From an uncultured Dehalococcoidia bacterium (GTDB taxonomy: Bacteria; Chloroflexota; Dehalococcoidia; Lucifugimonadales; Australimonadaceae), in the NCBI GenBank assembly GCA_958295525.1, contig OY282355.1:905504-969503 (forward strand): 64,000 nucleotides of DNA, given 5' to 3'. The stretch's first letter is position 1. Every line of letters begins with the position of its first letter. Shown here in pieces: positions 33,343 to 36,002 of this stretch. The notes below the pieces were generated by a model that did not search any database, was not told the DNA's origin, and was given only the letters and a program-made list of their open reading frames with translations. The translations under genes and the position numbers were made by a program.

Positions 33343-34107
33343 ATGGCGACGGTCGCTTGGACACGATACCAATTGCTGGTGGCGTTTGGTTTGTACATTC
33401 GGCTGCCGCAGCGCAGATTCCGCGAGACTGACCCTGAAATAATCCTCTTCGCGGAAACGATAGGGCGGTCGCCTGCGTCCTTGAAGATGAAACTCTGGAA
33501 CATCGCCAGCCTTGATCCTGCGGTCAAATCCACTGGCCGCAGGAGTCTCAACAATGCATCCCTCAGCGACCGCGCAATGTGGAGCGAGATGCAAAGCGAC
33601 TGGGAGCGATTCGCCGTTCAGTGCGAACAGGCGCTTGCGGGATTCCCTGCGGCAACGGGACCTCTGTTCGACCTGCCGGAGAGCAGTCTCCCTGAGCGGC
33701 TGGGGAGGGAACGTCCAGTCGAAACAACCGCCCGGGTAGGGCAAGGGTTCTTCCGCGCAGCCGTAATGAGCGCTTACGCGGGAGAATGCTGCATCACAGG
33801 TCTGTCCGTGCCCGCCTTGCTCGTGGCAAGCCACATCGTGCCGTGGAGCGTTGACGAGCGCAATAGGGTGAACCCTAGAAACGGCTTGTTATTGTCCGCG
33901 CTGCACGACAAGGCTTTCGATACGGGACTGCTGACAATTGACGACGAGTTACTAGTAAGAGTTTCGTCGGAAAACGAGGTTTCCGATGACAAATTCTTTG
34001 CGGAATCTATTGGAATTTACGACGGGAAACCAATCAGACCTCCAGAGAAATTTGAACCAGAGAAGGAGTTTTTACGCTGGCATAGAGAGCATGTATTTAA
34101 AGGATGA
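33343..34107 (+). CDS. HNH endonuclease domain protein
   Basis: The 254-residue product has an N-terminal region like the winged or helical domain that precedes HNH nucleases in restriction-type genes (LLVAFGLYIRLPQRRFRETDPEI), then, near residues 163-200, SHIVPWSVDERNRVNPRNGLLLSALHDKAFDTG, the HNH_2-type core with His-Asn-His-type metal ligands. It is likely a DNA-cleaving enzyme in the cytoplasm. GC content falls here relative to flanking genes, and the start (ATG 33343) comes only 22 bases after UbiD. Its stop overlaps, in an ATGA junction, a 50-codon frame made from a UbiD fragment. It is the first gene of an island that also holds the HNH-DGQHR fusion. Confidence 0.82.
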   Translation: MATVAWTRYQLLVAFGLYIRLPQRRFRETDPEIILFAETIGRSPASLKMKLWNIASLDPAVKSTGRRSLNNASLSDRAMWSEMQSDWERFAVQCEQALAGFPAATGPLFDLPESSLPERLGRERPVETTARVGQGFFRAAVMSAYAGECCITGLSVPALLVASHIVPWSVDERNRVNPRNGLLLSALHDKAFDTGLLTIDDELLVRVSSENEVSDDKFFAESIGIYDGKPIRPPEKFEPEKEFLRWHREHVFKG

Positions 34108-34256
34108 CTTGCCCTGTCGCCGTTTCCTTCGGCCACGATCCGATGCTGCTGCTCGGCGGGCTGGAGATCGACTACGGCGAGGATGAGTTCGCGGTCGCGG
34201 GCGGCGTGCGCGGGGAGCCGCTCGACGTACCCACCGGATTCCGTGCCGCACGGTAG
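34104..34256 (+). pseudogene. Duplicated internal UbiD fragment forming a 50-residue open frame
   Basis: Bases 34108-34228 match 32425-32548 of the UbiD gene with four mismatches and a 3-base deletion. Read from ATG 34104, which overlaps the HNH stop by four bases (ATGA), the frame is MTCPVAVSFGHDPMLLLGGL onward and ends at 34256. The open frame is therefore UbiD-derived in its own frame, ending RAAR. Past 34228 weak similarity to UbiD may continue after a deletion. Confidence 0.85.
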
Positions 34257-34314
34257 GAATTATGCAAATCCACTACTAGGAGAATTGGAGCGTGAAATAC
34301 GCATCAGACATGTA

Positions 34315-35937
34315 CTACACTCCGTCTTTGGGTTTGATCATTTCCATTAGGTTAAGCCCGGACGACATCACTCTTTGCCCAGAAGGAGTTGAGCCATCTT
34401 CAAATATAGATTGCCAATAGCCATACGCCTGTTTTCCGCCGAAAACAGAACTTGCCAATCCTTTGTTCACCCACAAGGTCAACCTCATTAAAGAGTCAAT
34501 GAAATTCTCAATGTTATCCCAGCATTGGTCAGGAATAATGTACTGGAACAACTTGTTTTCGTCAATAGGCCTGCCAGTCGTAATGAAAAATTGCGACACA
34601 ATTTGACGAACATAGCGGAGCCAATTGTAAAGACTTTCCTCTTTTGCCATTCTAAAGGCGCGCAAATGAGGCTCAGGAACGTCTACCTTATTCTGGATAT
34701 CATGTTCTATACGGCGTGTGCCGCGCGAATGGTCAAATTTGTCAATATAAATCTTATGGGCGATGATGTTCATTAACCGCACTATTTGCTCAACCTCTAG
34801 TTGGCGTGGGTTCGCCCCTTCTTCAACTTTGTGACTAAATGGAGTATCGAGTAAGCCGCCATGTATGAAGAATGAATAAAAAGTCTTTTCGATCGTGCTG
34901 TAGCTAAATGGCATTTCAGTGCCGCGACCTCCGTATTCAATGTAAGAACGAAGGTTATTGTCCTGGTGGAATGTAATTTGATGGCGGACAGCATCGATGA
35001 CATTCTTTTTCATCGCACTCTTTTCTGCTTTAAAGTGCGACACGAGGTCAACTTCCGAGAAACTCTCGTCATCTGGTTCTAGGTCAAGGTCCGCTCTGTA
35101 TCTGTTAATTCTTTCCAGTAGGAGAGTGCTACCCAAACTCCGCTGAGCCGACTTGTCAAAGGCAACTTGACGCAGAAAAGTCCCTGCATTTGTGTTCGCA
35201 GTAAGCAGCACATCAGTGTTAGGATCAATGAAAATTCTGACAGGCAAACGCTTGGCCCCCAACAGAATCTGGGCTGCCGCTTTGTGCTGGCCGTCAAAAA
35301 TTTTGACCGTCACTTTGTCTCCTGATGACGTGTCTATCCATCCCAAGGCTATGTGCAACTGAGGAAAACGCTTATGGAATTCCTCTATGAGTTTGCGTAA
35401 ATTCTTTCCGATTGCCCGTGGGTTAATGCGGTCATCGTGCTTGAGGTACTCGATAGGCATATTCAGAAACACATAGCGGAAACCGGATAGCCCATCCGCA
35501 TGGATAGGCGTTTCCAAGATGTCTACTTCTCCTATTTCGCTAAACGATGTCTTCAATATCGATCCTGCTATCGATATTGTCAAGTCATGTTTCGCTCCTC
35601 CGTACTTTCCTAGTATATCGGCAAGGTTCGGGGAGCGATTGTCGGATTTCACTTCATCGGCTATCGTGTCAAAAGATGCCAATAGCCTAGCTACCCGCAG
35701 GTCGCTGGCCTGCTTCGAGCGATTGCAGGCGGCGTGCGTCAAGGCGAAGTTTTCGGGGGCATCCTTGCCCCCGACGCTGATCGGTTCAACGTGATCAATG
35801 TCAACTTCACTGCTGTGCAGGAGCAAGTCAACCGGCTTTGCGCAGATGAAGCAGCTGCCTCCTTGGGAGGCGTGGAGGTCGGATATGAGGGCCAGCCGTT
35901 GTTCACTCGACTGCCTGCTGAGGTAAAGGGAACTCAC
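34315..35937 (-). CDS. HNH nuclease fused to a DGQHR/ParB-like domain
   Basis: The 540-residue product has an N-terminal HNH module: Cys29 and Cys32, then DIDHVEPISVGGKDAPENF (residues 46-64), His68 and Cys71 in ALTHAACNRSK. This is the HNH fold with a zinc finger. The middle has VKIFDGQHKAAAQILLGAK (residues 211-229), the DGQHR motif of DndB-like and ParB/Srx-like proteins involved in DNA modification or regulation. The remaining 300 residues are helical and unassigned. GTG 35937 follows GGGGAGGATAAG by about nine bases, and a strong promoter lies upstream. AT-rich codon use sets it apart from neighbours, suggesting transfer. A role in defence is inferred from the domain pair. Confidence 0.8.
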   Translation of the reverse strand: MSSLYLSRQSSEQRLALISDLHASQGGSCFICAKPVDLLLHSSEVDIDHVEPISVGGKDAPENFALTHAACNRSKQASDLRVARLLASFDTIADEVKSDNRSPNLADILGKYGGAKHDLTISIAGSILKTSFSEIGEVDILETPIHADGLSGFRYVFLNMPIEYLKHDDRINPRAIGKNLRKLIEEFHKRFPQLHIALGWIDTSSGDKVTVKIFDGQHKAAAQILLGAKRLPVRIFIDPNTDVLLTANTNAGTFLRQVAFDKSAQRSLGSTLLLERINRYRADLDLEPDDESFSEVDLVSHFKAEKSAMKKNVIDAVRHQITFHQDNNLRSYIEYGGRGTEMPFSYSTIEKTFYSFFIHGGLLDTPFSHKVEEGANPRQLEVEQIVRLMNIIAHKIYIDKFDHSRGTRRIEHDIQNKVDVPEPHLRAFRMAKEESLYNWLRYVRQIVSQFFITTGRPIDENKLFQYIIPDQCWDNIENFIDSLMRLTLWVNKGLASSVFGGKQAYGYWQSIFEDGSTPSGQRVMSSGLNLMEMIKPKDGV

Positions 35938-35973
35938 AGGAACTTATCCTCCCCAGAGGAATTTTGAGTCTCC

Positions 35974-36002
35974 CTTGTACCACAAGACCACGGGGCTGTC
36001 AA
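35974..36002 (-). promoter_or_regulatory. Strong promoter of the HNH-DGQHR gene
   Basis: On the minus strand TTGACA (36002-35997) and TACAAG (35979-35974) are spaced by 17 bases, giving a transcript start near 35967 and a leader of about 30 bases. Inverted heptamers GAGTCTC and GAGACTC flank the promoter (about 36010-36016 and 35965-35972), a layout that suits a repressor site. Confidence 0.7.

Follow-up and report, generated by a model that had tools for sequence, protein, structure and literature searches.

A conserved HNH–ParB/sulfiredoxin-like fusion protein as a candidate self-contained, NTP-switched anti-invader nuclease

The window, a 64-kb stretch of DNA, contains a gene (34315..35937, minus strand) for a 540-aa protein in which an N-terminal HNH nuclease domain is fused to a ParB/sulfiredoxin (Srx)-like domain bearing a DGQHK motif and to a helical C-terminal half. 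We infer, for function, target and nucleotide alike, that this protein is rather likely to be a self-contained, horizontally transferred, NTP-switched HNH nuclease that would act against invaders without a partner. The domain content, the conservation, the signs of transfer and the association with restriction-modification (RM) genes are established here. Since an HNH domain is combined with what appears to be a nucleotide-binding switch, often inside restriction operons, a stand-alone anti-phage nuclease is the probable reading.

In the proposed mechanism, the ParB/Srx-like domain would bind, and probably hydrolyse, an NTP at the DGQHK loop. The helical C-terminal half would detect some feature of the invading DNA, most probably the presence or absence of a base or backbone modification, and the NTP switch would then allow nicking or cleavage of the DNA by the N-terminal HNH domain. 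Such a protein would work in the manner of the type IV systems GmrSD, SspE, and TgvAB, in which an HNH domain is gated by an NTPase, with another domain order and without DUF262 and DUF1524. No dedicated partner would be required, and the gene, often carried in RM operons, would act as a backup against phages that evade RM. NTP binding and use, DNA cleavage, the target, and the defence role are suggested by analogy with SspE and TgvAB.

The source genome consists of one contig of 2.51 Mb. A preliminary description placed two genes on opposite strands at 33343-36002, and both open reading frames are intact there: 33343-34107 on the plus strand encodes 254 aa and 34315-35937 on the minus strand encodes 540 aa, the remaining ~65 bp up to 36002 being 5′ sequence beyond the larger gene. 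The start codon of the 540-aa gene is GTG at 35937, with GGAGGA ahead of it, and the encoded N-terminus, MSSLYLSRQS, agrees with the family consensus. As the two genes converge tail to tail, they do not form an operon. Their base composition departs from that of the surroundings, as the same description held, with a GC content of 55.4% in the 254-aa gene and 47.4% in the 540-aa gene against 67.1% in the upstream ubiD and 66.2% in the window, and a third-position GC of 62% and 53%, respectively, against 88–92% in the neighbouring genes.

Right behind the stop codon of the 254-aa gene, between the two genes, 121 nt (34108..34228, plus strand) duplicate an internal segment of ubiD. Aligned with the ubiD of this genome (32425-32548), the copy shows 94% identity in 124 columns; its identity to ubiD of the same genus is 81–86%, and it is therefore attributed to a local duplication and not to import. 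Within the genus, only ubiD is common at the site of the island and the cupin gene is located elsewhere, so that a clean empty site could not be drawn. An Rfam search found no RNA genes near the island, the two tRNAs of the window being far off, and a promoter scan gave sites no more numerous than expected by chance.

Searches of the 540-aa protein against Pfam, NCBIfam, PADLOC, and PHROGs matched essentially the N-terminal HNH alone, with 31.0 bits for the zinc-type HNH profile PF01844 (cut-off 21.4). An AlphaFold2 model built with an 80-member alignment has a mean pLDDT of 90.7. The HNH nuclease domain, recognised by profile, fold search, and conservation, covers residues 9-94 (35656..35913, minus strand), and the modelled domain matches the HNH domains of Cas9 (7mpz, Z 8.5). 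It contains a putative zinc site formed by C29, C32, H68, and C71, and a putative catalytic set of D48, H49, N63, and N72.

The second domain, residues 150-246 (35200..35490, minus strand), is assigned by fold search and by the invariance of its motif. The modelled region superimposes on sulfiredoxin (3cyi, Z 7.8, 94 residues, rmsd 3.0) and on PadC (6ryk_A, Z 7.0, rmsd 2.4), followed by Noc and ParB entries. These Z scores are moderate, and the predicted ParB/Srx fold is better supported by the fact that many ParB/Srx entries concur; the ParBc profile PF02195 matches none of the 80 aligned family members at E 0.01. The DGQHK codons (residues 215-219) fall at 35281..35295 on the minus strand, as computed from the start at 35937, and in the model the motif comes after a strand and begins a helix. 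The nucleotide loop of the Srx/ParB fold likewise follows a strand and opens a helix. The helices behind the domain align loosely with those of KorB and pNOB8 ParB.

The C-terminal half, residues 252-540 (34318..35184, minus strand), is delimited by conservation and by a separate model (pLDDT 92), which is helical. No PDB entry was matched by Foldseek (best E 4.5), so the roughly 300 residues that had been left unassigned have no recognised fold in the predicted structure either; the fold search returned just a weak sigma-factor-like helix match (Z 4) over residues of about 258-316. A viral fold library gave ParB-like and HNH matches only, none of them full-length.

Relatives were collected in one scan of 84,980 species genomes with two peptide patterns, which yielded 149 proteins, a lower bound on coverage, of which the best 80 were kept. 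Two pairs of loci, L030/L062 and L031/L080, are apparently the same contigs obtained through two collections (equal lengths and identities), and L062 and L080 were excluded from the alignment and from the counts. In the best 80 of 149, C29, H49, N63, P173, R174, Q193, and the run from F214 to K219 (F214, D215, G216, Q217, H218, K219) are identical in every member, as are N248, A251, Q257, F260, E295, P343, R378, E381, H424, and R429. The presence of the run in 80/80 aligned relatives indicates that DGQHK did not arise by chance. The PF01844 HNH is also found in 80/80, so that no aligned relative lacks the nuclease domain, and the joining of a zinc-finger HNH to a DGQHK motif, noted at first sight, holds throughout the alignment. 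D48 and N72 are each kept in 78 of the 80, and some family members that have lost zinc ligands retain the catalytic HNH residues. HNH catalysis is favoured because H49 and N63 are invariant and D48 and N72 nearly so, in the same D-H-N-N set that is carried by GmrD (PMC4619093). The ~300 residues beyond the HNH are conserved to the same degree as the nuclease. The family is thus large and highly conserved in bacteria and archaea, and the family libraries used detect its HNH alone.

The neighbourhoods of the relatives repeatedly contain RM genes. In four loci (L063, L071, L081, L105), the relative is the middle cistron of an hsdR-[gene]-hsdM arrangement with gaps of 0–27 bp, and in L097, it lies directly behind a large gene of a type I locus with hsdM. 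Type III Mod and Res are present in six loci (L034, L035, L037, L055, L056, L061), an IIG enzyme with a helicase in L092, an IIG enzyme in L083, a type II enzyme with a methylase in L033, and a methylase fragment in L040. RM genes occur in 18 of 86 loci, a descriptive count since the queries were picked from those loci. As an enrichment control, 50 genomes carrying the gene were used (282 N6_Mtase matches in 204.8 Mb). N6_Mtase was expected 1.4 times within 8 kb of the relatives and is present there in 7 loci (Poisson P 7e-4); within 300 bp, the expectation was 0.14 and the observed number 4 (Poisson P 2e-5). The expectation was derived from complete genomes; the 7 observed cases were taken from a reading of the loci and paired manually with the positions listed. 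The genes in the loci are longest-ORF calls, so that some listed neighbours are spurious. The likeness to DNA-modification-dependent defence that had been suggested is therefore borne out in part, in that the relatives are enriched beside modification and restriction genes, but no shared partner was found in the neighbourhoods. Of the two outcomes that the preliminary description would have counted against it, homologues without the HNH are absent from the alignment, while a shared partner is indeed lacking.

In the Verrucomicrobial loci L034, L035, and L037, type III Mod/Res genes surround the HNH-DGQHK gene, L035 and L037 also have a DrmD-like helicase, and the cargo is variable, with an AbiU-like protein in L035 and an LmuB-like ATPase in L037. 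The cluster may represent a composite defence locus.

An unlikely alternative is that the protein is a transcriptional regulator of RM or modification genes in the manner of DndB, the HNH serving as a DNA-binding or accessory part. DndB is an ATP-dependent repressor. The DGQH(K/R) motif, the ParB-like fold, the loose helix alignment with KorB and pNOB8 ParB, the weak DndB profile link, and the embedding in RM operons are compatible with such a role. However, each catalytic HNH residue is kept in at least 78 of the 80 members, most copies are solitary and have no evident gene to regulate, and the profile link to DndB spans 40 columns only.

The best 80 of 149 relatives come from Pseudomonadota, Bacteroidota, Bacillota, Spirochaetota, Verrucomicrobiota, Nitrospirota, Planctomycetota, Chloroflexota, archaea, and others, with an identity to the window protein that is mostly 42–66% across phyla. 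In the tree, the window protein clusters with L029 from the same phylum and with L033 from Nitrospira (66% identity), and then with Verrucomicrobia; the phylum labels require 25 changes against a minimum of 14. A full-length copy of the gene was found in 0/5 other genomes of the genus. The tree grouping, the lack of a full-length copy in these genomes, and the odd GC content together indicate, from sequence comparison, that the 540-aa gene was horizontally transferred. Two viral contigs carry a family member; plasmid records gave no match, and phage records gave one HNH-sized match only.

Two further observations concern individual lineages. In a side lineage (L084, L085, L113), a related gene of 181–188 aa lies 9–55 bp downstream in 3/3 loci; L113 is the viral contig IMGVR_UViG_3300048599_000897, in which the genes are very long, and since it is viral, phages may carry the nuclease too. 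L041 and L042 encode an identical protein with the same flanking genes; their MAGs, which come from related groundwater samples, are labelled Omnitrophota and Desantisbacteria, and one of them probably contains a binning artefact.

The patchy distribution, the signs of transfer between phyla, the many solitary copies in unrelated contexts, and the copies on viral contigs, together with the HNH domain itself, could also be read as those of a selfish, homing-type HNH gene that spreads itself and does not serve host defence. This is improbable, as no conserved target gene and no intron or intein context was seen in the loci, conservation of the ~300 additional residues equals that of the nuclease, hsdR and hsdM stay in their operon order around the inserted gene, and the gene is enriched near RM genes.

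Slightly less probable again is a suicide effector acting on nucleotides or RNA, in which NTPs would be broken down by the ParB/Srx domain, or toxicity would reside in the helical half, with the HNH as a secondary element. The invariant E295, R378, E381, H424, and R429 could form a second site, and nucleotide degradation in conflict systems has been put forward as a role of ParB-superfamily enzymes (PMC10853773). On the other hand, the C-terminal half has no recognised catalytic fold, and the neighbourhoods of the 540-aa relatives show no recurring antitoxin-like partner.

The 254-aa protein (33343..34107, plus strand) is a putative restriction endonuclease that matches PF13391 (HNH_2) with 52 bits and PADLOC PDLC04132 with 342 bits, and residues 128-253 match NF045808. 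By family profile, it comes closest among solved structures to the HNH domain of VcaM4I (6yex, E 1.8e-19), a modification-dependent enzyme (PMC7897488). Its family also conserves the N-terminal 115 residues, to which no solved structure or reader domain was matched by sequence. The protein looks like a separate nuclease, possibly a type IV-like one. About 15 of 400 genomes of the phylum, the window's own among them, encode a full-length relative (~40% identity), and in 14 neighbourhoods nearly all of these relatives are solitary, with one beside a DNA methylase. Type II-like RM pairs whose methylases match one another lie near the closest 540-aa relative (L033:9699-11500) and near a 254-aa relative (L227:5784-7345).

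The preliminary description regarded the 254-aa protein as a free HNH partner, which is not upheld, since none of the 85 other loci of the 540-aa gene contains a 254-aa relative and the 254-aa relatives are mostly solitary. The 254-aa gene is thus probably an independent neighbour of the larger one, and what surrounds the relatives of each gene largely rules out the pair as a system. That the 540-aa protein senses or gates and the 254-aa HNH cuts is very improbable: both genes are nuclease-like, adjacent, and in a common AT-richer island, and the closest relative (L033, 66%) also adjoins a tail-to-tail restriction enzyme gene, from another family, but the genes are convergent with a ubiD fragment between them, 254-aa relatives are absent from the other 540-aa loci and sit in unrelated places, and the 540-aa protein has its own HNH.

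Several observations also weigh against the preferred reading, an NTP-switched anti-invader nuclease. Within 8 kb of about three quarters of the examined relatives, no RM gene was recognised, and most of these copies are solitary between housekeeping genes. None of the known reader folds was recognised in the C-terminal half, and the 64-kb window has no modification gene adjoining the 540-aa gene. The profile links amount to just 0.2% probability (DUF262) and 40 columns (DndB), and in a screen of ParB-fold proteins 11/28 bound nucleotide and many bound none (PMC12704722).

In comparison with known systems, the DndB/DGQHR proteins (PF14072, TIGR03187) share with the 540-aa family the DGQH motif and a ParB-like fold. 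They differ in that the family has DGQHK and not DGQHR (R in 0/80) and carries an extra HNH. The DGQHR and DndB profile searches that had been called for gave no match to the 540-aa protein at E up to 1 and none in the 80 members; hhalign against DndB gave a weak match in the motif region (53.6%, 40 columns only), and dnd genes were absent from the 25 most frequent PADLOC matches listed for the immediate neighbours. Membership of the DndB family is therefore not supported, and of the motif's supposed DndB/ParB-like kind the ParB side stands, as a ParB/Srx-like fold, while the DndB side comes down to the motif and the weak 40-column match. A survey of ParB-CTPase (PF02195)-HNH (PF01844) fusions described them as novel in bacteria (Kaljevic et al. 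2025, PMC12704722); the 540-aa family was probably not counted there because PF02195 matches 0/80. Among the named defence proteins in PADLOC 2.0.0, matches to the 540-aa protein are confined to the HNH region (Cas9, PtuB, REase_II). The EVE-HNH enzyme VcaM4I and the SBD-SRA-HNH enzyme ScoMcrA have the HNH_2 domain in common with the 254-aa protein, whose N-terminal 115 residues, by contrast, match no structurally solved reader domain by sequence.

SspE, a phosphorothioate-sensing GTPase-HNH protein, offers the nearest model for the proposed switch. There, DGQQR in the related DUF262 domain is needed for the GTP hydrolysis that licenses the HNH (PMC13251355), and NTP hydrolysis at the DGQ motif may license the HNH of the 540-aa protein in a similar way. 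SspE differs in domain order and sequence, and no ssp genes were recognised beside the 540-aa gene.

GmrSD, BrxU, and TgvAB resemble the 540-aa protein in uniting a ParB/Srx-like domain with a DGQ-x-R/K loop and a D-H-N-N HNH in one protein, and in being stowaways in RM or defence operons; the GmrSD-like TgvAB is embedded in a type I system, and mutants in its DGQ motif abolish defence (PMC11411939). These systems consist of DUF262 with a C-terminal DUF1524, whereas the HNH of the 540-aa protein is N-terminal and of the Cas9/PF01844 type. Neither it nor the 80 members have a Pfam match to PF03235 (DUF262) or DUF1524, and hhalign of the family against DUF262 gives 0.2% probability, which rules out membership of the GmrSD family. 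The family may instead, though we hold this only tentatively, form a new class of NTP-gated restriction enzyme, with a Cas9-like HNH, a ParB/Srx switch, and a new helical sensor, that rides in RM operons, occurs in bacteria, archaea, and some viral contigs, and reads a DNA cue by means of the new C-terminal fold. If so, it would provide a single-gene test of how a ParB-fold switch controls nucleases, and possibly a new modification-dependent nuclease. It would also have arrived independently at what GmrSD, SspE, and TgvAB achieve, using a sensor half for which the searches found no similar solved structure.
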